From: Streptacidiphilus rugosus AM-16
GTDB lineage: Bacteria; Actinomycetota; Actinomycetes; Streptomycetales; Streptomycetaceae
Length of the DNA: 64,000 nucleotides
Direction of reading: 5' to 3'
Assembly: GCF_000744655.1 (NCBI RefSeq)
Contig: NZ_JQMJ01000004.1
Location: 1,984,001-2,048,000, forward strand
A program made the translations under genes and the position numbers. The notes beneath the pieces were generated by a model. It saw only the letters and a program-made list of their open reading frames with translations, searched no databases and was not told where the DNA came from. Positions 13,698 to 34,763 of this stretch are shown piece after piece (within the stretch, counting starts at the first letter, position 1; every line of letters starts with the position of its first letter).

Positions 13698-14096
13698 TCA
13701 GTCCAGCACGGCGATGCCCTCCAGCTCGACCAGCGCCGGCTCGTCCCAGAGCCGGACGACCCCGATCAGCGCCATCGCCGGGTAGTCCCGGCCGGCTCGG
13801 GCGCGCCAGACGCGGCCGATGTCGGCGGCGTGGGCGCGGTAGTCCTCGGGGTCGGTCGCGTAGACGGTCAAGCGGGCCAGCCGGTCGGGGCTGCCGCCCG
13901 CCGCCGCGAGGGCGGCCAGCAGGTTGGCCAGCGCGCGGTCGAACTGCTCGACCACGTCGGCGCCGACGATCGCGCCGCTCCGGTCCAGCGCGGTCTGGCC
14001 GGCCAGGAAGACCAGGGTGCCGCCGGTCGCGGTGACCGCGTGGCTGAAGCCGGTGGGTGGGGCCAGCTCGGGCGGGTTGATCCGGTGCAGCGTCAT
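13698..14096 (-). CDS. RidA/YjgF-family enamine/imine deaminase
   Basis: A 132-residue small trimeric-type protein. It has the GQTALD segment, the AL-NL-ALAAAGGSPD-LARLTVYATDPEDY core and a final DEPALVELEGIAVLD, all typical of RidA relatives. Its ATG overlaps the SDR stop codon (ATGA), so it is the third gene of a coupled operon with an acyl-CoA dehydrogenase and an SDR. RidA proteins hydrolyse reactive enamines and imines. In a 2-aminobenzoyl-CoA pathway the dearomatised product is an enamine, which gives this gene a plausible job; that is inference. Confidence 0.85.
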   Translation of the reverse strand: MTLHRINPPELAPPTGFSHAVTATGGTLVFLAGQTALDRSGAIVGADVVEQFDRALANLLAALAAAGGSPDRLARLTVYATDPEDYRAHAADIGRVWRARAGRDYPAMALIGVVRLWDEPALVELEGIAVLD

Positions 14097-14857
14097 GACT
14101 GCACGCCTCCTCCGTCGACGGTGAGGCCCTGACCGTTCAGGGCCTCCTGTTCCAGCAGCAGCCGGACCACGGCCGCGACCTCCTCCGGGCGGATCAGCCG
14201 CCCGATCGGCTGCATCCGCGCCAGCGCGGCGCGGGCCTGCGCCTCGTCGCGTCCGGTGCGGGCGACGATCGCGGCGACGGTGGCGTCCGTCATCGGCGTG
14301 TCCACATAGCCGGGGCAGACCGCGTTGACGGTCACGCCGGTCCCGGCCACCTCGGCGGCGGCGGCGCGGACCAGTCCGAGCGCGCCGTGCTTGGCCGCCG
14401 TGTACGCGGCGACGTACGGAGCGCCGACCTTCGCCGCGACCGAGGTCACCACGACGATCCGGCCCCAGCGCGCCCCCAGCATCGACGGCAGCGCGCGGCG
14501 GACGCAGCGGAAGGGGGCGGTGAGGTTGAGCGCGAGCTGCTGCTCCCACAACTCGTCCCCGGTCTCGGTCAGCCGGGCCGACGCGCCCGCTCCGGCGGCG
14601 GCGACCAGCACCTCGGCGGGGCCCCACTCCGCCTCGACCCGCCCGAAGAGCGTCTCGGCGGCGTCGGGCGCGGTGAGGTCCACCGGGACGGTCAGGCTCG
14701 GCCCCGGCAGCGCCCGCGCGGCGCTCGCCAGCGCGTCCGGGTCGCGGGCGGCCAGGACGACCCGGTGGCCGGCGGTGGAGAGGTCCGCGGCGACAGCCGC
14801 GCCGATGCCCTTGCTGCCGCCGGTGACCACGCAGATCCTGCTCGGTCCGGCGCTCAT
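14093..14857 (-). CDS. Short-chain dehydrogenase/reductase (probable 3-hydroxyacyl-CoA dehydrogenase step)
   Basis: A 254-residue Rossmann enzyme with TGGSKGIG for NAD(P), a Ser in VVTSVAAK and the YTAAKH catalytic pair. The C-terminus ends in the usual GQGLTVDGG. It overlaps both neighbours by four bases (acyl-CoA dehydrogenase upstream, RidA downstream), so all three are coupled. In the CoA-dependent aminobenzoate pathway of Azoarcus an SDR of this kind carries out the hydroxyacyl-CoA oxidation in a beta-oxidation-like series. The assignment to that step comes from context. Confidence 0.85.
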   Translation of the reverse strand: MSAGPSRICVVTGGSKGIGAAVAADLSTAGHRVVLAARDPDALASAARALPGPSLTVPVDLTAPDAAETLFGRVEAEWGPAEVLVAAAGAGASARLTETGDELWEQQLALNLTAPFRCVRRALPSMLGARWGRIVVVTSVAAKVGAPYVAAYTAAKHGALGLVRAAAAEVAGTGVTVNAVCPGYVDTPMTDATVAAIVARTGRDEAQARAALARMQPIGRLIRPEEVAAVVRLLLEQEALNGQGLTVDGGGVQS

Positions 14858-16191
14858 CGGGCGAGCTCCCTCGCGATGATCGAGAGCTGCACCTCGGAGG
14901 CGCCCTCGTAGATCCGGGGCGCACGGACCTCCCGGTAGAGCTGCTCCAGCAGGTGGCCCTGCCGCAGCGCCCGCGCGCCGTGGATCTGGACGGCGGCGTC
15001 GACGACGTACTGGGCCGTCTCGGTCGCGAACAGCTTGGCCATCGCCGCGCGTCCGGTCGGCCCGTGCAGGCCCGTCCCGCGCTCCTCGCGCCCGCCCTGG
15101 CGGTCGTAGGCGGAGGCCGCCGCGTAGACGAGCAGCCGGGCGGCCTCGGTGCGGGTGGCCATCTCGGCCAGTCGGTGTCCGACGGACTGGAGCTGCAGCA
15201 GCGGTCCGCCGAAGGCCTCCCGTTCGGCGGCGTGGACGAGCGCGGCGTCGAGCGCCGCCTGCGCCATCCCGACCGCGAAGGCGCCCACGCTCGGGCGGAA
15301 CAGGTCGAGCGTGCGCATCGCGACCCTGAAGCCGTGCCCGACCTCACCGAGGCGGTCCTCCGGGCCGACCCTGACTCCGTCGAAGAGGACCCTGCCGATG
15401 GGGTGCGGGGAGATCATGTCGAGCTGCTCGCCGCCCAGGCCCGCCCGGTCGGCCGGGACCAGGAAGGCGGTGACCCCGCGTGCGCCGGCCTCGGGACCGG
15501 TCCGGGCGAAGACCGTGTAGAAGTCCGCCTCGGGCGCGTTCGAGATCCAGCACTTCTCGCCGCTGAGCCGCCATCCTCCCGCTTCGGCCTTCGCCTCCAG
15601 GGCCAGCGCGGCGGCGTCGGAACCCGCGCCCGGCTCCGACAGCGCGAACGCCGCGACGGCCCGCCCTGCGGCGACCTCCGGCAGCCATCGGCCGATCTGC
15701 GCCTCGCTGCCGCTCTGCAGCACGGGGTAGGCCCCGAGGCCCTGCAGCGCCAGAGCGGTCTCGGCCTCGGTGGACACCTGCGCCAGGCTCTCCCGCAGCA
15801 GGCACAGGTCCATCGCGGCCGCCTGCCGCAGTCCGCCTCCGGCCTCCGAGCCGGAGGCGCCGCCGGCCCCCACCCCGGGGAAGAGCCGTGCCAGCAGGCC
15901 GAGCCTCCCCATCTCCTCCAGCAGCGGCCGGTTGACCCGAGGGGAGCGGCCCTCGGGAAGCAGCCTGTCCCCGCGGGACGGCAGGGATCCGCCGCGACCA
16001 GCTCCGCCGACGCCGTCCGGCGCCGAGGAGGTGGCCGTGGGCGGACCCGGGCGCGTCGTGCCATCCGGCGGGAAGCCGCCCGCGCCGTGGGCGTGGGTCA
16101 GCGGCAGCAGCCGCTCCGTCGCCAGCGCGCGGACGTCCGCGCAGAAGCGGTGCTGCCCGTCGTCGAGCGTGAATGCCGCCGTCGCCGTCAT
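14854..16191 (-). CDS. Acyl-CoA dehydrogenase with an unusual Pro/Gly-rich insert
   Basis: A 445-residue flavoenzyme. Conserved acyl-CoA dehydrogenase blocks are present: AFALSEPGAGSDA, KCWISNAPEADFYTVFART and the C-terminal RAPRIYEGASEVQ with the catalytic-type Glu. The start at 16191 (MTATAAF) follows GGGAGCAG. Between helix A and helix B, at about residues 34-83, there is a roughly 45-residue low-complexity insert (GFPPDGTTRPGPPTATSSAP and onward) that I do not expect in this family. It heads the operon with the SDR and RidA genes and is divergent from the aryl-CoA ligase, so it probably oxidises a cyclic or ring-derived acyl-CoA. Confidence 0.88.
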   Translation of the reverse strand: MTATAAFTLDDGQHRFCADVRALATERLLPLTHAHGAGGFPPDGTTRPGPPTATSSAPDGVGGAGRGGSLPSRGDRLLPEGRSPRVNRPLLEEMGRLGLLARLFPGVGAGGASGSEAGGGLRQAAAMDLCLLRESLAQVSTEAETALALQGLGAYPVLQSGSEAQIGRWLPEVAAGRAVAAFALSEPGAGSDAAALALEAKAEAGGWRLSGEKCWISNAPEADFYTVFARTGPEAGARGVTAFLVPADRAGLGGEQLDMISPHPIGRVLFDGVRVGPEDRLGEVGHGFRVAMRTLDLFRPSVGAFAVGMAQAALDAALVHAAEREAFGGPLLQLQSVGHRLAEMATRTEAARLLVYAAASAYDRQGGREERGTGLHGPTGRAAMAKLFATETAQYVVDAAVQIHGARALRQGHLLEQLYREVRAPRIYEGASEVQLSIIARELAR

Positions 16192-16245
16192 CGCCTGCTC
16201 CCTCCTCCGCCGTGAAGCCGTCGGTCCATTCATATCGCGGAAGGT

Positions 16246-16273
16246 TGACTGTCGTCACCAACGCGCTAGCCTG
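16246..16273 (+). promoter_or_regulatory. Putative promoter of the aryl-CoA ligase
   Basis: TTGACT (16246-16251) and TAGCCT (16268-16273) are spaced by 16 bases, upstream of the ligase start at 16328. A GTTGACCGT sequence also occurs just before the PaaX-like start at 17961. The match is by eye to the standard vegetative sigma consensus. Confidence 0.45.
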
Positions 16274-16327
16274 ACTTCGGACCGACCCGGTCCCTGCCAA
16301 GGTCAAGGTGAGGGGGAAACACCCGCC

Positions 16328-17950
16328 ATGCACCTGCTCCCCTCCGCGCACGTCGACACGTTCGCGCGCGATCACCTCCCGCCCGCCGACGCGTGGCCGG
16401 AGCTGCGCTTCGACCTGCCGGAGCTGCACTATCCCGACCGGCTCAACTGCGGAGCCGAACTGCTCGACGCCACCATCGCCGCCCTCGGCCCCGACCGTCC
16501 CTGCCTGCGGCTGGAGGACGGCCAGGTCTGGAGCTACGGCGAGCTGCGCGCGCAGACCGACAGGATCGCCCGCGTGCTCACCGAGGACCTGGGCGTCGTC
16601 CCCGGCAACCGGGTGCTCCTGCGCGGCGTCACCACGCCCTGGCTGGTGGCCTGCTGGCTGGCCGTCATGAAGGCGGGCGCGGTGGCGGTCACGGTGCTGG
16701 CCGCGCAGCGCCGCAGCGAACTGGCCACGATGGTCGAGATCGCGGAGGTCCGCCACGCGCTCTGCGACGCCCGCTTCCTCGACGAGCTCACCGCCGTGGA
16801 CGCCCCAGGACTGACCGTCGTCCCCTACGGCGGCTCCACCCCCGACGACCTGCTCACCCTTGCGGCCAAGCAGTCCGACGCCCCCTTCCCCGCCGTCGCG
16901 ACCTCCGCCGACGACGTCGCCCTGATCGCCTTCACCTCCGGCACCACCGGGCGCCCCAAGGGCTGCATGCACTTCCACCGCGACGTGCTGGCCATCGCCG
17001 ACACCTTCTCCGCCCACGTGCTGCGGCCGACCCCGGACGACGTCTTCACCGGGACGCCGCCGCTGGGGTTCACCTTCGGCCTGGGCGGCCTGGTGATCTT
17101 CCCGATGCGGGTCGGCGCGTCCGCGCTGTTGCTGGAACAGCCCTCCCCCAGCGCGCTCCCCGCGGCGATCGAGCGCCACAGGGTCAGCGTGCTGTTCACC
17201 GCGCCGACCGCCTACCGGGTCCTGCTCGACCACGCCGACGGGGCCGACCTCTCCTCGCTGCGCCGCTGCGTCTCGGCCGGGGAGAACCTGCCCGCCGCGA
17301 CCTGGGAGGCCTTCCACGACCGCACCGGGCTGCCGCTGATCAACGGCATCGGGGCGACGGAGCTGCTGCACATCTTCATCTCCGCGGCGGACGATGACGC
17401 CAGACCCGGCGTCACCGGCCTGCCCGTGCCCGGCTTCCGCGCCCGCGTGGTGGAGGCCGCGACCGGCGCGGACGTCCCCGACGGCACGCCCGGTCTGCTC
17501 GCCGTCCAGGGCCCGACGGGCTGTCGCTACCTCGACGACCCGCGCCAGCACGACTACGTCCACGACGGCTGGAACCTGACCGGCGACACCTACGTCCGCG
17601 ACCCCGACGGCCGCTTCCGCTACCAGGCGCGGGCCGACGACATGATCATCTCGGCCGGGTACAACATCGCGGGCCCCGAGGTCGAGGAGGCCCTGTTGCG
17701 CCACCCCGACGTGCGGGAGGCGGCGGTCATCGGGGTTCCCGACGAGGCGCGCGGGCAGGTGGTGAAGGCCTTCGTGGTGCTGGCGGAGGGCGTCCCCGCG
17801 GACGAGGGGACGGCGAAGGGCCTGCAGGACTTCGTGAAGTCCGCGATCAGCGCCTACAAGTACCCGCGTCAGGTCGAGTTCCGTGAGGCGCTGCCGCGCA
17901 CCCCCACCGGCAAGCTGCAGCGGTACCGACTGCGGGCGACTGATCTTTAG
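16328..17950 (+). CDS. Aryl-CoA ligase, 2-aminobenzoate/benzoate-CoA ligase type
   Basis: A 540-residue adenylate-forming enzyme that activates an aromatic acid as its CoA thioester. The P-loop TSGTTGRPKGCMHFHRD is the form seen in benzoate and 2-aminobenzoate-CoA ligases. INGIGATELLHIF (A5), RFRYQARADDMIISAGYNI (A8) and the terminal PTGKLQR lysine (A10) are all present. ATG 16328 follows AAGGTGAGGGGG. It is divergent from the ACAD-SDR-RidA operon and 10 bases ahead of the PaaX-like gene. The acid could be anthranilate, salicylate or benzoate; the monooxygenase/reductase downstream favours anthranilate. Confidence 0.85.
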   Translation: MHLLPSAHVDTFARDHLPPADAWPELRFDLPELHYPDRLNCGAELLDATIAALGPDRPCLRLEDGQVWSYGELRAQTDRIARVLTEDLGVVPGNRVLLRGVTTPWLVACWLAVMKAGAVAVTVLAAQRRSELATMVEIAEVRHALCDARFLDELTAVDAPGLTVVPYGGSTPDDLLTLAAKQSDAPFPAVATSADDVALIAFTSGTTGRPKGCMHFHRDVLAIADTFSAHVLRPTPDDVFTGTPPLGFTFGLGGLVIFPMRVGASALLLEQPSPSALPAAIERHRVSVLFTAPTAYRVLLDHADGADLSSLRRCVSAGENLPAATWEAFHDRTGLPLINGIGATELLHIFISAADDDARPGVTGLPVPGFRARVVEAATGADVPDGTPGLLAVQGPTGCRYLDDPRQHDYVHDGWNLTGDTYVRDPDGRFRYQARADDMIISAGYNIAGPEVEEALLRHPDVREAAVIGVPDEARGQVVKAFVVLAEGVPADEGTAKGLQDFVKSAISAYKYPRQVEFREALPRTPTGKLQRYRLRATDL

Positions 17951-17960
17951 AGTTGACCGT

Positions 17961-18818
17961 ATGACCACCCGCATGACCGCCGAGGAGGAGTCCGCCGGCT
18001 CCGCACGCGAGCACACGCCGGGCTCGCTGCTCGTCACCTTCTTCGGCGCGCACGGCCGCGACCTCGGCGGCTGGATCGCCGTCGGCGACCTGATCCGGCT
18101 GCTCGCCGCGCTCGGCGTGGACGAGCAGCCGGTGCGGTCGGCCGTCTCCCGGCTGAAGCGGCGCGGCTTTCTGGTGCCGGAGCCGCTGGGGGGCGTCGCC
18201 GGGTACGCGCTGTCGGAGTCGGCGCGGGAGCTGCTGGCCGACGGCGACCGCCGCATCTACGCGACCCGCGCCCCGAGGCTGGCGGACGGCTGGGTGCTGG
18301 CGCTGTTCTCCGTGCCGGAGAGCGAACGGCAGCAGCGGCATGTGCTGCGCTCGCGGCTGGCCCGACTCGGCTTCGGCGTCGCGGCGCCGGGCGTGTGGAT
18401 CGCGCCCGCGCATCTCTACGAGGAGACCCGGCACGACCTGACCCGCCTGAAGCTGGACCGCTACACGGATCTCTTCCGGGCCGAGCATCTCGCCTTCGAG
18501 GCGACGACGGAGTCGGTCCGCCGCTGGTGGGACCTGCCCGCGCTGGCGCGCTGCCACGAGGACTTCCTGGAGGTCCACGAGCCGGTGCTGACCCGGTGGA
18601 ACCGCGCCCGCGGCGCCGCCGCCCTCCCCGAGGCCTTCGCCGACCACCTCCGCGCGCTGGACAGCTGGCGCCGCCTCCCGTATCTCGACCCCGGCCTCCC
18701 CCCTGAACTCCTCCCCTCCGCCTGGCCCGGCCTCCGCGCCGCCCGCGTCTTCCAGGACCTCGATTCCCGCCTCCGCCAGTCGGCCACGGACTTCGTCCGA
18801 ACAGCGGTCAGCCGATAG
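17961..18818 (+). CDS. PaaX-family transcriptional regulator
   Basis: A 285-residue regulator with the PaaX layout: an N-terminal winged helix (SLLVTFFGAHGRDLGGWIAVGDLIRLLAALGVDEQPVRSAVSRLKRRGFL, about residues 20-65) and the PaaX C-terminal domain (GVWIAPAHLY region, then RLPYLDPGLPPELLP). PaaX proteins repress aromatic-acid CoA pathways and release DNA when an aryl-CoA binds. The gene starts 10 bases after the ligase stop, in the same transcript. It is the natural candidate to control all three transcription units of the anthranilate-CoA cluster. Confidence 0.88.
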   Translation: MTTRMTAEEESAGSAREHTPGSLLVTFFGAHGRDLGGWIAVGDLIRLLAALGVDEQPVRSAVSRLKRRGFLVPEPLGGVAGYALSESARELLADGDRRIYATRAPRLADGWVLALFSVPESERQQRHVLRSRLARLGFGVAAPGVWIAPAHLYEETRHDLTRLKLDRYTDLFRAEHLAFEATTESVRRWWDLPALARCHEDFLEVHEPVLTRWNRARGAAALPEAFADHLRALDSWRRLPYLDPGLPPELLPSAWPGLRAARVFQDLDSRLRQSATDFVRTAVSR

Positions 18819-18895
18819 GCGCGCGCGGCATCTGCACGCGAGAAACCAGGCAGTGCCTCAGGGGCGCGGATCCTGCGAGCGGTGATCAGCCGCAA

Positions 18896-19000
18896 CAGGG
18901 GCGCGGGGAACTGCGCGAGAAACCACCCTGTGCGGATGGCCCTGCGCGCTGAGGACCATCCGCGTGTCAGTGGCTTGTCGCGCAGTTCCCCGCGCCCCTG
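18896..19000. repeat. Interspersed hairpin repeat, copy B
   Basis: A 105-base imperfect inverted repeat. The outer arms CAGGGGCGCGGGGAACTGCG are perfect for about 22 bp, and the inner stem GCGGATGG/CCATCCGC is perfect. It lies between the convergent PaaX-like and monooxygenase/reductase genes. A broken half copy precedes it (about 18850-18895), and a tail beginning TGAGTGCAACTGGCCCT follows. The family members are at 11.7, 22.6 and 50.7 kb. Confidence 0.88.
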
Positions 19001-19043
19001 GGTGAGTGCAACTGGCCCTCCGTTGTGGCCTGGCGGGCCCTTG

Positions 19044-21296
19044 CTACTGCTTGCGGCCCGTCTGGGGGCGGCGGCTGCCGGCGCGGTACGGGAGGGGCCA
19101 GTCCACGCCCGGGCCGGACCATTCCTGTTCCGCTGCCGCGTGCAGCGTCCAGGCAGGGTCGTACAGGTGCGGACGCCCCAGCGCGACGAGGTCCGCGCGG
19201 CCGGCCAGGATGAGGGAGTTGACGTCGTCCCAGGAGGAGACCGCGCCCACGGCCACCACCGGCACGCGCACGCGATTGCGGATCGCGTCCGCGAAGGGGG
19301 TCTGGTAGGAGCGGCCGTAGGCGGGGCGCTCGTCGGAGACGACCTGGCCGGTGGAGACGTCGATCGCGTCCGCGCCGTGCGCGGTGAACGCCGCGGCGAT
19401 GGCCACCGCGTCGTCGACCTCGTTGCCGCCCGCCGCCCAGTCCGTCGCGGAGACGCGGACCGTCATCGGGCGGTCCTCCGGCCAGACCTCCCGCATCGCG
19501 TCGAAGACCTCCAGCGGCCAGCGCAGCCGCGCCTCCAGGGAGCCGCCGTAGGCGTCGGTCCGGTGGTTGGTCAGCGGGGAGAGGAAGGAGGAGAGCAGGT
19601 AGCCGTGCGCGCAGTGCAGCTCCAGCAGGTCGAAGCCGGCCGCCGCGCCCCTCCGTGCCGCCGCGGCGAACTGCTCCCGCAGCTCGCCCAACCGGGCGGG
19701 CGTCAGCTCGCTCGGGACCTGGCCGAGGCCGGGCCGGTAGGCCAGCGGTGAGGGGGCGACGACCGGCCAGGCGTCCGCCTGGTCCAGCGGGTCGTCCATG
19801 CCCTCCCACATCAGCCGGGTCGCGCCCTTCCGCCCGGCGTGGCCGAGCTGGAGGCCGATCGCCGCGCCGCTGCTGCCGTGGACGAAGTCCACGATCCTGC
19901 CCCATGCGGCCTGCTGCTCGTCCGACCAGAGGCCGGTGCAGCCGAGGGTGATCCGCGCCTCCGGCGCGACGCAGACCATCTCCGTCATCACCAGGCCCGC
20001 GCCGCCGAGCGCCCGCGCGCCGAGGTGGACCAGGTGGAAGTCGTTCGGCAGGCCGTCCTCGGCGGAGTACATGTCCATGGGCGAGACCACGACCCGGTTG
20101 CGCAGCGTCAGTCCGCGCAGCCTGAAGGGCGTGAACATCGGCGGCGTGCCCGTCGGCGCGCCCGGTCCGGCGAACTCGGTCTCCAGCGCGGCGACGTAGC
20201 CCGGGTCGCGCAGCCGCAGGTTGTCGTAGGTGATCCGGCGGCTGCGGGTGAGCAGGTTGAAGGCGAACTGCCAGCCCGGCTGCTCCAGGTACTGGTCCAG
20301 GTTCTCGAACCACTCCAGGCTCGCCTGGGCCGCACGCTGCGTCGACTCGACGACCGGGCGCCGCTCCGTCTCGTAGGCGGTCAGCGCCTCCGACACGGAG
20401 GCGGCGCCGGGCAGGCTCGCCGCCAGGGCCAGCGCGTCCTCCATGGCGAGCTTGGTGCCGGACCCGATCGAGAAGTGGGCCGTGTGGGCGGCGTCGCCGA
20501 GCAGCACGGTGGTCCCGTCGTGCCAGACCGCGTTGCGCACGGTGGCGAAGGCGATCCAGCGCGAGTCGTTGCCGCGCAGGGCGTGGCCGCCCAGCGCGTC
20601 CGCGAAAAGCTTCTCGCAGGCGGCGATGGACTGCTGCTCGTCCAGCAGGTCCAGCCCGGCCCGTCGCCAGACGTCCTCGCGCATCTCGACGATGACCGTG
20701 CTGCCGTCGGCGGAGTAGGGGTATCCGTGCAGTTGCATGACGCCGTGCTCGGTGCGCAGTACGTGGAACTGGAAGGCGTCGAAGACCAGGTCGGTGCCGA
20801 GCCAGATGTAGCGGCAGCGGCGGGTGTCCAGGGTCGGCCGGTAGACCTCCGCGCCCGCCGTCCTGGTCCGCGAGCGGACGCCGTCGGCGGCGACGACAAG
20901 GTCGTGGGTCCGGGCCAGCTCGGCCGCGGGCGGGGCCTCGGTGCGGAAGCGCAGGTCGACGCCGAGGGCACGGCAGCGGGCCTGGAGGGTGTCCAGCAGC
21001 CGCCTGCGGCTGGTGGCGGCGAAGCCGTGGCCGCCGGAGGTGAAGACCCGGCCGTCGGGGAGGTGGACGTCGATGTCGTCCCAGCGGGCGAAGCCGGCCG
21101 CGAGCTCGGTGTAGAGCTCGGGGTCGGCCTCCTCGATGCCGCCCAGGGTCTCGTCGGAGAGGACGACGCCGAAGCCGAAGGTGTCCCCGGCCGCGTTGCG
21201 CTCCCAGACGGTCACCTCGTGGCCGGGATCCTGCCGCTTGGCGAGCGCCGCGAAGTAGAGCCCGCCAGGACCTCCGCCGATCACCGCGATCCGCAA
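19044..21296 (-). CDS. 2-aminobenzoyl-CoA monooxygenase/reductase-like bifunctional flavoprotein
   Basis: About 750 residues in two fused parts. The N-terminal half (about 1-370) is a PHBH/salicylate-hydroxylase-type FAD monooxygenase: RIAVIGGGPGGLYFA, WERN and a LLGDAAHTAHF FAD motif. The C-terminal half (about 385-750) is an old-yellow-enzyme reductase: TLRNRVVVSPMDMY, QLGHAGRKG and SPLTNHRTDAYGGSLE. This fusion is the hallmark of the Azoarcus enzyme that hydroxylates and then reduces the ring of 2-aminobenzoyl-CoA; it is also annotated as salicylyl-CoA 5-hydroxylase. TTG 21296 after GGGAGG is preferred to ATG 21326, which would have almost no leader. Confidence 0.85.
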   Translation of the reverse strand: MRIAVIGGGPGGLYFAALAKRQDPGHEVTVWERNAAGDTFGFGVVLSDETLGGIEEADPELYTELAAGFARWDDIDVHLPDGRVFTSGGHGFAATSRRRLLDTLQARCRALGVDLRFRTEAPPAAELARTHDLVVAADGVRSRTRTAGAEVYRPTLDTRRCRYIWLGTDLVFDAFQFHVLRTEHGVMQLHGYPYSADGSTVIVEMREDVWRRAGLDLLDEQQSIAACEKLFADALGGHALRGNDSRWIAFATVRNAVWHDGTTVLLGDAAHTAHFSIGSGTKLAMEDALALAASLPGAASVSEALTAYETERRPVVESTQRAAQASLEWFENLDQYLEQPGWQFAFNLLTRSRRITYDNLRLRDPGYVAALETEFAGPGAPTGTPPMFTPFRLRGLTLRNRVVVSPMDMYSAEDGLPNDFHLVHLGARALGGAGLVMTEMVCVAPEARITLGCTGLWSDEQQAAWGRIVDFVHGSSGAAIGLQLGHAGRKGATRLMWEGMDDPLDQADAWPVVAPSPLAYRPGLGQVPSELTPARLGELREQFAAAARRGAAAGFDLLELHCAHGYLLSSFLSPLTNHRTDAYGGSLEARLRWPLEVFDAMREVWPEDRPMTVRVSATDWAAGGNEVDDAVAIAAAFTAHGADAIDVSTGQVVSDERPAYGRSYQTPFADAIRNRVRVPVVAVGAVSSWDDVNSLILAGRADLVALGRPHLYDPAWTLHAAAEQEWSGPGVDWPLPYRAGSRRPQTGRKQ

Positions 21297-21345
21297 GGCC
21301 GCCTCCCTCGTCAGCTCAGAGCACATCCATAGCGCCTACCCGACC

Positions 21346-21374
21346 ATCGTAATGACAGCGCTATGCGCTGTCAC
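21346..21374 (-). promoter_or_regulatory. Promoter and palindromic operator of the monooxygenase/reductase gene
   Basis: On the minus strand GTGACA (21369-21374) and TACGAT (21346-21351) are spaced by 17 bases, a good vegetative promoter. A perfect 21-bp palindrome, TGACAGCGC-TAT-GCGCTGTCA (21353-21373), covers the -35 box and spacer. This is where a repressor such as the PaaX-like protein would act. It also overlaps the stop codon of the enoyl-CoA hydratase gene. Confidence 0.65.
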
Positions 21375-22201
21375 CGCCCCTGCCACTTCGGCGGGCGCCT
21401 GCCGGTGAAGGCGGCGTGGAACTCGGCGTAGTCGGCGCTCTTCATCAGCAGCGCCTGGGTCATCGCCTCCAGCTCGACGGAGGCGGCCAGGCTCATGTCG
21501 AGCTCCTGGGTGAGCAGCGCCTTGGTCTGCGCCAGCGCGAAGGCCGGGCCCTCGGCGAGCCTGCGCGCGAGCGCGCCGGCGGCGGCGTCGAGCTCCTCGT
21601 CCTCGACGAGCTCGCTGACCAGGCCGTAGCGGTCGGCGGTGGCGGCGTCGATGGTGTCGCCGAGCATCAGCAGCTTGGTGGCGTGGCCCAGCCCGACCAG
21701 GCGCGGCAGCAGGTAGGCGGCGCCCATGTCCGCGCCGGCCAGACCGACCTTGGTGAACAGGAAGGCGAACCGCGCGGAGCGGGCGACCACCCGGAAGTCG
21801 GCGGCGAGCGCCAGCACCGACCCGGCCCCGGCCGCGATGCCGTGGATCGCCGCGATCACGGGGATCGGGCACTCCCGGACCGCGCGGACGACCTGGCCGG
21901 TCATCCGGGTGAAGTCGAGCAGCTCGTCGGGACGCATGGCGAGCGTGGCGCCGATGATCTCGTTGACGTCCCCGCCGGAGCAGAAGGCCCGCCCCTCCCC
22001 GCGCAGCAGGACCGCCCGGGTGTCGCCGCGCTGCGGCAGCTCCGCGAGCAGGTCGCGGAGGTCGGCGTAGGAGTCGAAGGTCAGCGCGTTGAGCTTGTCG
22101 GGCCGGTCCAGGGTGACCGTCAGCACGCCCGCCTCGTCGCGACCGAGACGGAAGTGCCGCCAGTCCTCGGTGAAGGGAACGGATCCTCGGAACGGACTCA
22201 T
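21371..22201 (-). CDS. Enoyl-CoA hydratase/isomerase family protein
   Basis: A 276-residue crotonase-fold enzyme. Oxyanion-hole segments are visible as RAFCSGGDV and HGIAAGAGSVLALAADFRV. The start at 22201 (MSPFRGS) follows GGGGAGGT; an in-frame ATG 14 codons upstream is less likely. Its stop codon lies inside the palindromic promoter of the monooxygenase/reductase gene 75 bases further on. It probably hydrates or isomerises a ring-derived enoyl-CoA in the anthranilate pathway, matching the hydratase of the Azoarcus cluster. Confidence 0.87.
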   Translation of the reverse strand: MSPFRGSVPFTEDWRHFRLGRDEAGVLTVTLDRPDKLNALTFDSYADLRDLLAELPQRGDTRAVLLRGEGRAFCSGGDVNEIIGATLAMRPDELLDFTRMTGQVVRAVRECPIPVIAAIHGIAAGAGSVLALAADFRVVARSARFAFLFTKVGLAGADMGAAYLLPRLVGLGHATKLLMLGDTIDAATADRYGLVSELVEDEELDAAAGALARRLAEGPAFALAQTKALLTQELDMSLAASVELEAMTQALLMKSADYAEFHAAFTGRRPPKWQGR

Positions 22202-22341
22202 GATGCGGCGACCTCCCCTGATGGCGACTGGCGTCACGAACACGATATGCCGTCGCAGCCCCTGCGGACAGGGGGAACGGTGGCGCGGGGGGAGGGTTCA
22301 GGCATACTGCAGTCAGACAGGCGTACGAAGGAGTTCTGAGC

Positions 22342-22702: not shown

Positions 22703-23872
22703 TCAGGAGAGTGCGGACTTCAACGGGATCGCCGGGTCCGTCGCCCTGGCGACGTCGAGCCGTGCGCCGGAGTCGATCAGCTTGCGGCCCTGGGCCAGAT
22801 CCCGGGGCCGGTCCACGGCCAGCAGGGCGACCAGCTTCCCCTCGCGCAGCCAGAGGACGGCGTCCTCGCCGCGGGCGACCCACTCGTCGCCCGCGTCCCA
22901 GTGGCCGGCGACCTGGACCATGTGCCCGAACTGCTCGGACCAGAAGTACGGCACCGGGTCGTAGGCAAGCTCCCCGCCCAGCAGGTTGGCCGCCACCACC
23001 CGCGCGCCCTGGAGCGCGTTGTCCCAGTGGTGCACCGCCAGTCGGCGGCCGTAGCGGGCCGAGGGGAAGCTCGCGCAGTCCCCCACCGCGTAGACGCCGG
23101 GGATTCCGCCCGCCCGCAAGCGCGCGTCGGTCGCGATCGCGCCGCGGTCGTCGAGGGCGATGCCGGAGCCGGCGAGCCAGCCGTTGTCGGGACGGGCGCC
23201 GATGCCGACGACCACCACGTCCGCAGGAACCCGGCTGCCGTCGGTCAGCAGCACCGCGTCCGGCGCGATGCCGCTCACCGCCGCGCCCGTCAGCAGCCGC
23301 ACCCCGGCCGCCTCGTACCAGGCACGGGTGCGTTCGCCCAGCTCCGCGGGGAGCGCGCCCGCCAGCGGGGAGGGGGCCGCCTCGACCACGGTGACCTCGC
23401 AGTCCAGCTGCCGCGCGACCGTCGCCGCCTCCGCGCCGATCCAGCCCGCGCCCACGACCGCCACCCGCGTGCCGGGCCGCAGCGCGGCCTTCAGCGCGAC
23501 CGCGTCGTCGTGCGTGCGCAGCAGGAACGCGGACTCCGGCTGACCGGGCAGCGCGATCGGGGCCGCGCCGGTGGCCAGGACCAGCTGCTCGAAGCCGAGG
23601 TCTCCGGCGTCCGTCTTCAGCAGCCGCGCCTCCAGGTCCACCGACAGCGCCCGCCGTCCGAGGGCCAGCTCGATGCCGAGGCGCGCGAAGTCGATCTCGA
23701 AGCGGGAGTGCTCGGCCCGGCCCAGCAGCACGTCCTTGGAGAGCGGCGGCCGGTCGTAGGGCGGGTGCCGCTCCGCGCCCAGCAGGACCAGCGAGCCCTG
23801 GTAGCCCTGCTCCCGCAGTGCCACCGCCGTCTGCACCCCGGCCATCCCGGCCCCGACGATCACAACAGCCAT
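22703..23872 (-). CDS. FAD/NAD(P)H-dependent ferredoxin reductase-like oxidoreductase
   Basis: A 389-residue two-dinucleotide-fold flavoprotein. VVIVGAGMAGVQTAVALR binds FAD, YDRPPLSKDVL is the rubredoxin/ferredoxin reductase signature, and VAVVGAGWIGAEAA binds NAD(P)H. GVYAVGDCAS completes the FAD site. The C-terminus has a reductase_C domain (VQVAGHWD). Start 23872 (MAVVIVG) is divergent from thiO, and its promoter must overlap that of the riboswitch. It probably passes electrons from NAD(P)H to a ferredoxin, perhaps for a P450 or dioxygenase elsewhere. Confidence 0.88.
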   Translation of the reverse strand: MAVVIVGAGMAGVQTAVALREQGYQGSLVLLGAERHPPYDRPPLSKDVLLGRAEHSRFEIDFARLGIELALGRRALSVDLEARLLKTDAGDLGFEQLVLATGAAPIALPGQPESAFLLRTHDDAVALKAALRPGTRVAVVGAGWIGAEAATVARQLDCEVTVVEAAPSPLAGALPAELGERTRAWYEAAGVRLLTGAAVSGIAPDAVLLTDGSRVPADVVVVGIGARPDNGWLAGSGIALDDRGAIATDARLRAGGIPGVYAVGDCASFPSARYGRRLAVHHWDNALQGARVVAANLLGGELAYDPVPYFWSEQFGHMVQVAGHWDAGDEWVARGEDAVLWLREGKLVALLAVDRPRDLAQGRKLIDSGARLDVARATDPAIPLKSALS

Positions 23873-23903
23873 TCGGCCACTGTATAGAGTGGGTCGAGAA
23901 GTA

Positions 23904-23993
23904 GACACGGGAGCCCGGAGCACCGGGCTGAGAGGGAGGCTGGGGCGCCTCCGACCGTCCGAACCTGATCCGGGTCATGCCGGCGAAGGGAGT
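23904..23993 (+). ncRNA. TPP riboswitch (THI element)
   Basis: The leader of thiO has the TPP aptamer hallmarks: ACACGGGAGCCC paired with GGGCTGAGAGGG, then GAACCTGATCCGGGTCATGCCGGCGAAGGGA. A TATAGA -10 box is at 23883-23888. The AAGGGA at the 3' end is also the only ribosome site for the TTG start of thiO, ten bases on. Ligand binding would therefore hide the site and stop translation. Confidence 0.95.
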
Positions 23994-31178: not shown

Positions 31179-32537
<1,359 letters not shown>

Positions 32538-32624
32538 CTACGTCGTCACGGAAACGATCGACCTCAACTGACCGCTCAGTGAGACGGGTCGTGGACTTGC
32601 GCCCCTCCCGCCCCCGGCGTCCGC

Positions 32625-32630
32625 TACGCT
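32625..32630 (+). promoter_or_regulatory. -10 box of the leaderless trp leader
   Basis: TACGCT ends seven bases before the GTG of the leader peptide, so transcription should start at the initiation codon. No clear -35 box is visible at the standard distance. Confidence 0.55.
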
Positions 32631-32637
32631 CGGCACC

Positions 32638-32706
32638 GTGAGCACGCAGTCGCACTCCTACAGCGCCTACAGCTGGTGGTGGACCGTCCCCGAGGCGGCC
32701 CACTAG
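32638..32706 (+). CDS. trpL: trp leader peptide with three consecutive Trp codons
   Basis: A 22-residue peptide (MSTQSHSYSAYSWWWTVPEAAH) from GTG 32638 to TAG 32706. Three TGG codons in a row at 32674-32682 make the ribosome a sensor of charged tRNA-Trp. The peptide sits between a -10 box and a rho-independent-type attenuator, 128 bases ahead of trpEG. This is the arrangement of classical trp attenuation, known for streptomycete anthranilate synthase genes. Confidence 0.93.
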   Translation: MSTQSHSYSAYSWWWTVPEAAH

Positions 32707-32762
32707 CGAGCGTACCCACGCAGACTTCCACGGCCGCCCCTCGGGGCGGCCGTTCTCGTCTG
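32694..32762 (+). terminator. trp attenuator with antiterminator pairing
   Basis: The terminator stem CGGCCGCCC/GGGCGGCCG (32731-32739 and 32744-32752, loop CTCG) is followed by TTCTCGTCT. An outer CAGAC/GTCTG pair (32721-32725, 32758-32762) can extend it. GGCGGCC at 32694-32700 is complementary to GGCCGCC at 32732-32738 and would form the antiterminator when the ribosome stalls on the Trp codons. Confidence 0.85.
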
Positions 32763-32834
32763 CGACGAGCTGCCTCCCCGAGCGGCGGTCACCGACACCC
32801 GTCACCGACCCGACTCGCTCCAGGAAGGCTCACC

Positions 32835-34763
32835 GTGACCGACACGAGTTCTCTCGTCCGGCGTCTGATCGAGGCCGCCGAGCCGTTCGCCCTGCTGCAC
32901 CGCCGCACGCCGCGCCTCGCCCCCGACACCGTCGAGCTGCTCTTCGGCGAGGTGGGCGACCACGGGACGCTGGCGGAACTGCCGCTGCCCGAGGGCGCTC
33001 CCGGCCGTCCGACCCACGACCTGCTGGCGCTGGTGCCCTACCGCCAGATCCGCGAACGCGGCTTCGACGCCCGCGACGACGGCACGCCGCTGCGGGCGAT
33101 GCGGATCCGCGAGTCGCACGCGCTCCCGCTCGCCGAGCTCAGGGCGGCCCTGCCGGTCCGGCCCGTGGAACTGCGCGAGGGCGGCTTCGACGTGGACGAC
33201 GCGAGCTACGCGGGGATCGTGCGGCGGGTGATCGAGGACGAGATCGGACGCGGCGAGGGCGCCAACTTCGTCATCCGCCGCGACTTCACCGGGACGCTCG
33301 CGGACTTCTCCCCCGCACTCGCGCTGACCCTCTTCCGGCGGCTGCTCGAACAGGAGCGCGGCGCGTACTGGACCTTCCTGGTGTACACCCCTGATCGGGT
33401 GCTGGTCGGGGCCAGCCCGGAGGTGCACGTGCGGCAGACGGCCGGGACGGTGGTGATGAACCCGATCTCGGGCACCTACCGCTATCCGGCCGAGGGCCCC
33501 TCGCTCGCCTCGCTGGTGGACTTCCTGCACGACCCGAAGGAGCTCGAGGAGCTCACGATGGTCGTCGACGAGGAACTGAAGATGATGTGCACGGTGGGCG
33601 ATCTGGGCGGCCAGGTCCTCGGCCCGCGGCTGAAGGAGATGGCCCACCTCGCGCACACCGAGTACGAGCTGCGCGGCCGCACCTCGCTGGACGTGCGGGA
33701 GGTGCTGCGCGAGACCATGTTCGCGGCGACCGTGACCGGCAGCCCGGTGGAGAACGCGACCCGGGTGATCTCCCGCCACGAGCCGACCGGGCGTGCCTAC
33801 TACGCCGGCGCGCTCGCCCTGATCGGCCGCACCGCCGGGGGCGCGCAGACCCTGGACTCCCCCATCCTGATCCGTACCGCCGACATCGACCCGGCCACCG
33901 GCCGGCTCGCGGTCCGCGTCGGCGCGACGCTGGTGCGGCACTCGGACCCGGAGTCCGAGGTCGCCGAGACGCACGCGAAGGCGGCGGGGGTGCTCGCCGC
34001 CATCGGCGCGGTCCCGGCGCGGCGCCCCGCGCGCGGCGGGGCGGCGGCGTCCCCGGTGCTGGCGGAGAACCACCGGGTGCAGTCCGCGCTGGACGCCCGG
34101 CGGAAGAACCTGTCGCCGTTCTGGCTCCGGATGCAGACCTCCGGCCGTCCGTCGGCCCAACCGGCCGCATACGAGACGCTGGTCGTCGACTGCGAGGACA
34201 CCTTCACCTCGATGCTGGCGCATCTGCTGCGCTCACTCGGCCACCGGGTCACCGTCCGCCGCTGGGACCTGCCGGGCCTGGCGGAGGCGGTCGCCGCGCA
34301 CCAGGGCCCGCTGGTGCTGGGCCCCGGCCCCGGCGACCCCGCGGCGGACGACCCGAAGATGAACACGATGCGCGCGCTGGTCGCCCACCTGGTGGCGACC
34401 GGTCGCCCGCAGGGTTTCCTGGCCGTCTGCCTGAGCCACCAACTGCTCTCGGAGGCCCTGGGCCTGCCGCTGCACCGGAAGGCCACGCCGTACCAGGGCG
34501 CGCAGGAGCGGATCGACTTCTTCGGCCGGGAGGAGACGGTCGGCTTCTACAACACCTTCACCGCGCGGGCGGACGAGGCCGCGGCGCGGCAACTCGCGGA
34601 GCGGGGCGTGGAGCTGAGCCGGGACCCGCTCACCGGCGACGTCCACGCGCTGCGCGGGCCCGGCTTCGCGGGCCTGCAGTTCCACCCCGAGTCGGTGCTG
34701 ACGCTGGACGGCGTGGCGATCGTCAGCGAGCTGCTGGGCCGGTTGGTGCCACAATCGGCCTGA
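32835..34763 (+). CDS. trpEG: Fused anthranilate synthase (TrpE-TrpG), PhzE-like class
   Basis: A 642-residue fusion. Residues about 1-430 are the chorismate-binding synthase (NPISGTYRYPAEG, SPVENATRVISRHEPTGRAYYAGALALIG). About 455-640 are the glutamine amidotransferase with the nucleophile Cys in AVCLSHQ and FHPES. It converts chorismate and glutamine to anthranilate, or to ADIC if the lyase step is missing. The N-terminus reads PFALLHRRTPR and lacks the LLES motif that binds Trp in ordinary TrpE, so feedback inhibition may be weak. GTG 32835 has AGGAAGG six bases upstream. The attenuator gives transcriptional control by Trp. Confidence 0.92.
   Translation: MTDTSSLVRRLIEAAEPFALLHRRTPRLAPDTVELLFGEVGDHGTLAELPLPEGAPGRPTHDLLALVPYRQIRERGFDARDDGTPLRAMRIRESHALPLAELRAALPVRPVELREGGFDVDDASYAGIVRRVIEDEIGRGEGANFVIRRDFTGTLADFSPALALTLFRRLLEQERGAYWTFLVYTPDRVLVGASPEVHVRQTAGTVVMNPISGTYRYPAEGPSLASLVDFLHDPKELEELTMVVDEELKMMCTVGDLGGQVLGPRLKEMAHLAHTEYELRGRTSLDVREVLRETMFAATVTGSPVENATRVISRHEPTGRAYYAGALALIGRTAGGAQTLDSPILIRTADIDPATGRLAVRVGATLVRHSDPESEVAETHAKAAGVLAAIGAVPARRPARGGAAASPVLAENHRVQSALDARRKNLSPFWLRMQTSGRPSAQPAAYETLVVDCEDTFTSMLAHLLRSLGHRVTVRRWDLPGLAEAVAAHQGPLVLGPGPGDPAADDPKMNTMRALVAHLVATGRPQGFLAVCLSHQLLSEALGLPLHRKATPYQGAQERIDFFGREETVGFYNTFTARADEAAARQLAERGVELSRDPLTGDVHALRGPGFAGLQFHPESVLTLDGVAIVSELLGRLVPQSA

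Follow-up and report, generated by a model that had tools for sequence, protein, structure and literature searches.

Which aromatic acid is degraded by the enzymes encoded between positions 13698 and 22201 of this stretch of Streptacidiphilus rugosus AM-16 DNA (contig NZ_JQMJ01000004.1, positions 1,984,001–2,048,000; the whole 64 kb stretch is called the window), and how are their genes controlled? Open reading frames (ORFs) and family profile searches placed seven genes there, for an aryl-CoA ligase, a monooxygenase fused to an old-yellow-enzyme (OYE)-type reductase, a crotonase-family protein, an acyl-CoA dehydrogenase (ACAD), a short-chain dehydrogenase/reductase (SDR), a RidA-family protein and a PaaX-family regulator. 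They were read, with a probability of roughly 0.88, as a PaaX-controlled cluster for aerobic catabolism through 2-aminobenzoyl-CoA (abm-type). The pathway is a known one and, judging from the genes of relatives, appears to be common among them under a misleading ‘salicylyl-CoA’ database label; the gene set is not due to chance, since it recurs across the genus and the order. A first-pass annotation, made from the sequence alone, had proposed anthranilate (2-aminobenzoate) degradation by this set. All seven genes were recovered, including the GCMHFHRD loop of the ligase, with a fusion of 760 instead of 750 residues, and the anthranilate reading was supported by gene content equal to that of Aromatoleum (Azoarcus) evansii, by an intact OYE motif and by the presence of RidA in most anthranilate-type loci and in 0/8 gentisate-type loci. 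Anthranilate was preferred over salicylate because A. evansii KB740 shares six enzymes with the window and because the genome's own paralogue, accompanied by a gentisate-dioxygenase-like gene, has lost the reductase motif. The features are as follows.

13698–14093, minus strand: RidA-family protein, 131 aa, proposed hydrolase of a CoA-bound enamine (PF01042, 68.5 bits)
14093–14857, minus strand: SDR dehydrogenase, 254 aa (PF00106)
14854–16191, minus strand: ACAD (PF00441/PF02770)
16228–16273, minus strand: operator-like motif in the divergent ACAD/ligase region, overlapping a TTGACT −35-like box
16325–17950, plus strand: aryl-CoA ligase, 541 aa, predicted 2-aminobenzoate-CoA ligase (benzoate-CoA-ligase-type AMP-binding; TIGR02262, 338.9 bits, under the cut-off of 375.25)
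about 17961–18818, plus strand: PaaX-family regulator, predicted to act as a repressor that an aryl-CoA would release (PF07848, PF20803 and PF08223 over cut-off)
19044–21326, minus strand: 2-aminobenzoyl-CoA monooxygenase/reductase-type fusion, 760 aa (NF006101, 1191 bits, cut-off 1078)
21371–22201, minus strand: crotonase-superfamily protein, named ‘enoyl-CoA hydratase’ (ECH; NF006107, 394 bits, cut-off 330)
22207–22252, minus strand: second operator-like motif, immediately before the crotonase-fusion operon (weight matrix and exact pattern match)

By strand, three transcripts are probable: ACAD-SDR-RidA (from 16191) and crotonase-fusion (from 22201) on the minus strand, and ligase-PaaX (from 16325) on the plus strand. 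The predicted crotonase start was placed at the ATG at 22201 and not at the GTG at 22243 given by the ORF finder, because the latter would read through the operator-like site and because the alignment with the solved relative 3g64 (414 bits) begins at the MSPF start.

The fusion enzyme and the types of locus

Fetched fusion loci were sorted, in a classification of our own, into types A (that of the window), A2, B, C (gentisate-type), P and X; loci of one genus, g9, were compared with them. The window fusion carries the motifs GGGPGG, GDAAH and HCAHGY, the last being the OYE motif, intact at residues 571–576, whose His and Tyr we take to be the OYE catalytic residues. Hx[AG]HGY was kept in all readable loci of types A (15/15), A2 (8/8) and B (13/13), and HxAHGY in 20/20 g9 loci and in all 80 loci listed (the best 80 of 581 confirmed) from a scan of genome contigs by alignment of three proteobacterial fusions; in type C the motif was altered to QxGHGH (7/7 readable loci). 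Hx[AG]HGY-type and gentisate-type fusions were separated fully or nearly (thresholds 95% and 85%) at 13 alignment positions, including H571 to Q and Y576 to H, with 11 of the 13 beyond residue 390, in the reductase half. Both halves of the window fusion, which the first-pass annotation had proposed to compare with the Azoarcus enzyme, align with it (53% identity overall, 46% in the monooxygenase half and 61% in the reductase half). The reductase half is nearer to A. evansii (61%) than to the genome's own paralogue (56%), and the monooxygenase half is nearer to the paralogue (62%) than to A. evansii (46%). On our reading of these sequences, gentisate-type fusions would no longer need ring reduction, and the window enzyme would.

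In a tree of 61 fusions (quick search), types P, B, A2 and C are each set off by a single branch (SH-aLRT 99–100); type A needs three changes because two unclassified rows fall inside it. Fusion genes fitting no type were seen in L052 (G026:C3) and L051 (G022:C189); that of L052 has the changed motif QYAHGS, its locus has no RidA match, and a further function is possible. The fusion genes of G219, G148, G135, G230 and G279 (71–72% identity in the order search) have one in-frame TGA, from decay or sequencing error, and a contig titled Bacillus subtilis SK6B4 (L108), perhaps mislabelled or contaminated, carries a proteobacterial-type fusion 69% identical to a Comamonas one.

The paralogue is a second fusion gene at C4:3801474–3803741, 59% identical to the window fusion, in a type-C locus (L022, G000:C4:3792500–3812000). 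Around it lie genes for PaaX, for a protein resembling gentisate 1,2-dioxygenase (TIGR02272, 317.7 bits, cut-off 442), for proteins of the fumarylacetoacetate (FAA)-hydrolase (FAH) and nitrilase families, for an Amdase-like protein and for a ligase with a fused 4HBT thioesterase; no RidA was found in this locus. Nitrilase-family and Amdase/EutA-like genes were each matched in 7/8 type-C loci. Gentisate dioxygenase was matched in 7/8 loci of type C and in none of types A (0/14), A2 (0/8), B (0/14), g9 (0/20) or P (0/83), and a RidA gene in A 11/14, A2 8/8, B 14/14, g9 17/20, P 61/83 and C 0/8. Against a clean split of the types, FAH-family matches also occurred in B (9/14) and P (4/83), and thioesterase matches in B (5/14) and P (2/83). 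Nothing related to the gentisate dioxygenase, FAH, nitrilase or thioesterase of the paralogue's locus was found anywhere in the 64 kb window. The NCBI name of NF006101, salicylyl-CoA 5-hydroxylase, was rejected as a guide to substrate because the window copy passes its cut-off (1191 vs 1078) while the gentisate-type paralogue fails it (1012).

In the order, a fusion match (E ≤ 1e-150) was obtained in 224/245 genomes drawn, with types unassigned; a fusion gene of this family is common there and not rare, a reservation on the first-pass view of the full seven-gene set as little described. Among the order matches listed, all but the window itself showed 70–74% identity, as type-A fusions do; one large genus, g9, probably Streptomyces, supplies most of the matches in the order. 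The 20 g9 loci picked all contain ECH, fusion, ligase, PaaX and ACAD, and 17 contain RidA, the other three stretches ending at ACAD. Across a set of 61 genomes, 39 had a fusion match at E ≤ 1e-100 (A 14, A2 8, B 9, C 7; three, G022, G051 and G058, unclassified). No genome combined A or A2 with B (chance of no A–B overlap 0.012, kinship ignored) while two combined A with C, as would be expected if A and B were interchangeable routes for one substrate and C served another. A tryptophan-dioxygenase-family match was found in 38/39 fusion-bearing vs 13/22 other genomes (p 0.0002, kinship ignored), and in the window's own genome tryptophan dioxygenase adjoins kynureninase (TIGR01814, 300.6 bits, cut-off 246.4; C4:6970275–6972217).

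Proposed route and its enzymes

In the proposed route, the substrate in this strain would be anthranilate, which can come from tryptophan by way of the tryptophan dioxygenase and kynureninase encoded elsewhere in the genome. The ligase would form 2-aminobenzoyl-CoA; the FAD half of the fusion would hydroxylate C5 and the OYE half would reduce the ring, to give 2-amino-5-oxocyclohex-1-ene-carboxyl-CoA. RidA would hydrolyse this enamine to 2,5-dioxocyclohexane-carboxyl-CoA and ammonia, and crotonase, ACAD and SDR would open the ring and oxidise it in steps resembling beta-oxidation.

At the position of Arg105 of the archetypal RidA (alignment to the PAR of PH0854, the Arg of which we take to be Arg105) the window protein has Met, as does every readable row (A 12, A2 8, B 13, P 2, X 1); A. 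evansii RidA reads FPAM here. Of 59 RidA stretches in the proteobacterial-scan loci, 28 read [FY]PAM, 4 another PAx (at least one perhaps elsewhere in the protein) and 27 were left unaligned. According to passages of PMC4433059, Arg105 of ordinary RidA holds the ligand by its free carboxylate, and the enzyme is almost inactive without this residue. The lack of this residue might be expected here, because the carboxylate is a CoA thioester. For a RidA lacking Arg105 the enamine step is thus a plausible, putative one, which we regard as likely.

The crotonase-family protein lacks both hydratase glutamates, at what we take to be their positions in crotonase, and has a PaaG-like loop with Asp. In this it departs from its first-pass name, enoyl-CoA hydratase; from these residues, an isomerase or ring-opening role would be as likely as hydration. 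With at most 44 of the many SDR candidates scored per genome, an SDR match (E ≤ 1e-50) was obtained in 10/61 genomes; 8 of these belong to the window's genus and are all of type A, and the other two come from the same class. None of the 20 g9 loci had an SDR match, hence 0/17 with the region in view, so the core in those relatives looks like six genes, with the SDR retained or acquired again in the window's genus. The Sinorhizobium meliloti AK21 cluster goes on to genes for a 3-hydroxyacyl-CoA dehydrogenase and the thiolase pcaF, and these neighbours point to probable thiolytic end steps in that strain.

PaaX and the operator-like motif

All three PaaX domains of the window regulator (N-terminal, central and C-terminal) were over cut-off, and TIGR02277 scored 148.7 bits, under its cut-off of 264.55; the protein is therefore a PaaX-family member that, on this score, need not be the phenylacetate PaaX itself. 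It is 43–44% identical to two PaaX proteins of plasmid pAL1 of Arthrobacter sp. Rue61a.

Between the divergent ACAD and ligase genes lies a motif whose core, GGTGACGNCAGTCAA, is exact in 24/34 type-A loci and flanked in many of them by a TATCG-like arm and a CGCGATA arm. A 27-column position weight matrix (PWM) built from 17 sites outside the window's genus scored 32.9 at 16228 and 23.5 at 22207, the next best score in the 64 kb window being 5.0; with a PWM from all 24 sites the scores were 44.2 (self included), 22.5 and 0.1, and 60 simulated 64 kb sequences (first-order Markov) scored 17.5 at most with this PWM. The two sites are the sole high-scoring ones in 64 kb, one at each promoter region. 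The pattern TTSGTGACGNCAGTC, with ≤1 mismatch, gave five matches in the 9 Mb genome, and the reversed control one; both window sites are exact and a third match stands before the gentisate-type ligase (C4:3805989). The other two of the five, each with one mismatch, are at G000:C4:2432358 and 6124406. The 13-base core alone was not significant (with ≤1 mismatch, 2 in the window, both exact, 1.81 expected, 49/100 shuffles with ≥2), and for that reason the operator claim was based on the 27-column PWM and the 15-base genome-wide pattern. In related loci, a site near the crotonase start was among the best four for 33/34, several with low scores (to −4.4), and in three loci a site outside both promoters scored higher (L164, 20.1; L151 and L154, 12.0).

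We take the pAL1 regulator MeqR2 to have a palindromic operator and anthraniloyl-CoA as effector, and the motif core resembles that palindrome. The palindrome had 4 matches with ≤1 mismatch in L001 (1.26 expected; 3/100 shuffles as many). In pAL1 itself, one PaaX gene is preceded by an exact match, and another match, with one mismatch, lies between the genes for RidA and FAH. PaaX control through a putative operator is likely, because one motif stands at both promoters: PaaX would repress ACAD-SDR-RidA, ligase-PaaX and crotonase-fusion through one operator and be released by anthraniloyl-CoA. PaaX in place of MarR control, as first proposed, was supported by the regulator's family and the shared motif; that this is little described was not, since passages of PMC3534580 report PaaX-type regulators beside such genes in Arthrobacter.

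Around the cluster, 12 flank genes were scanned (three without a family), among them MTHFR, a prenyl-synthase-like gene, a PASTA kinase, DAHP synthase and PFK; thiE and thiO are tentative readings of ORFs. The ‘conserved envelope block’ proposed for the surroundings was not confirmed, the PASTA kinase alone having a likely envelope link in a scan confined to the first 40 kb. A ferredoxin-reductase-like neighbour (22703–23923) was left out of the cluster, its dioxygenase-reductase matches being far under cut-off. About 9–12 kb away, a class II DAHP synthase (TIGR01358, 767 bits) adjoins an anthranilate-synthase-family gene (best model 161.8 bits, cut-off 645) at 31179–34763.

Alternatives and known systems

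Several observations weigh against anthranilate catabolism by these genes under PaaX control. The NCBI model name for the fusion is salicylyl-CoA 5-hydroxylase, and the ligase pocket motifs FTFG and LH[IV]F, dropped as a substrate marker, do not separate anthranilate-type from gentisate-type loci, occurring in both. No RidA is seen in the stretches of two type-A loci, L002 and L057 (the stretch of one more, L029, is cut), and the window RidA lacks Arg105, an essential-like residue in ordinary RidA. The lower-pathway genes of the one experimentally studied actinobacterial relative, that with pAL1, differ (FAH, cupin, thioesterase); many related loci have only a low-scoring second operator site; and within the order the tryptophan-dioxygenase association is weak (37/38 vs 11/14, p 0.055, kinship ignored). 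Finally, no experiment on a type-A cluster was found in the literature, nor any experimental study of the cluster in Streptomyces, as judged from titles, abstract starts and passages, so that absence is unproven.

A very improbable alternative is that the substrate is a related 2-aminobenzoate (3-hydroxy-, 5-hydroxy- or N-substituted), or that the genes build a reduced aminocyclohexenone unit instead of degrading anthranilate. Ring-substituent specificity is unreadable from these data and the literature yielded no assays of the lower-pathway enzymes in an actinomycete; on the other side, a fusion match in 224/245 order genomes and the A. evansii-equal gene content suit core catabolism, and the kynurenine-pathway genes can supply plain anthranilate. 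A salicylyl-CoA route, in which the ligase would activate salicylate and the fusion would make gentisyl-CoA for hydrolysis to gentisate, has in its favour the name of NF006101 and the ligase motifs shared with gentisate-type loci and is very improbable, since no gentisate-route genes were found in the window (these adjoin the genome's other fusion copy, with its lost OYE motif), RidA would have no amine to act on, and pAL1 carries a fusion still named ‘bifunctional salicylyl-CoA 5-hydroxylase/oxidoreductase’ although passages of PMC3534580 record growth of Rue61a on anthranilate and none on salicylate.

On the anthranilate reading, a joint claim may be put forward tentatively, and we would sooner expect it to fail in some part than to hold throughout: anthranilate-CoA catabolism would be near-universal in Streptomycetaceae under a salicylate label, one PaaX-type operator would serve both clusters of this genome (with possible cross-regulation), and a RidA clade would act on a CoA-bound enamine without Arg105. 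For proteins named ‘bifunctional salicylyl-CoA 5-hydroxylase/oxidoreductase’ the types give a working rule, in which Hx[AG]HGY with a RidA neighbour indicates anthranilate and QxGHGH with gentisate dioxygenase indicates salicylate. Anthranilate from tryptophan is a precursor of some antibiotics of Streptomyces relatives, and the cluster suggests how many of these may dispose of tryptophan-derived anthranilate. The candidate PaaX operator is directly testable.

Among described systems, the salicylyl-CoA 5-hydroxylase/gentisate route of Streptomyces sp. WA46 (passages of PMC4600096), together with the paralogue locus, resembles the window cluster in ligase, related fusion and PaaX, and differs in having gentisate dioxygenase, FAH and thioesterase, no RidA and a lost OYE motif. 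For Streptomyces thermocarboxydus DF3-3, passages of the genome paper (PMC9277890) predict an anthranilate pathway from abmG, kynU and TDO.

In a search of a plasmid collection, pAL1 was found to encode a fusion 61% identical to that of the window over 99%. Passages of PMC3534580 state that the pAL1 ligase and its chromosomal paralogue, when expressed in E. coli, both acted on anthranilate, that Rue61a encodes two PaaX-related regulators there, and that anthranilate-grown cells contained anthraniloyl-CoA and the CoA esters of C7H7NO3 and C7H8O4 acids, the latter tentatively cyclohexanedione-carboxyl-CoA. The C7H8O4 ester would fit a deaminated ring product and is for that reason compatible with a RidA-like step, to which those passages do not assign it. 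pAL1 is like the window in ligase (57%), fusion, RidA (49%) and PaaX-type regulators; unlike the window, its run is without ECH, ACAD and SDR and has FAH, cupin and acyl-CoA thioesterase genes.

The 2-aminobenzoyl-CoA pathway itself was described for A. evansii KB740 (passages of PMC4539516). Its locus (L107), one of the 80 listed from the genome-contig scan, has the order fusion, SDR, ECH, ACAD, RidA, MarR, ligase, by similarity to annotated Ruegeria and window proteins. Among the 53 loci of more than 19,500 bases from the same best 80 of 581, RidA was matched in 47, ECH, ACAD and SDR in 46 each, MarR in 32 and ligase in 29 (tblastn over 45 bits; some SDR or ligase matches may be other family members). 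The A. evansii locus differs from the window in a MarR-like regulator (by similarity) in place of PaaX and in a single same-strand run in place of three divergent transcripts. It is like the window in fusion (53%), ligase (56%; both ligase comparisons over 536–539 aa), ECH (50%), ACAD (47% over 360 aa), SDR (46%) and RidA (35%), and with these six enzymes in common the reference set includes RidA and the beta-oxidation-like genes.

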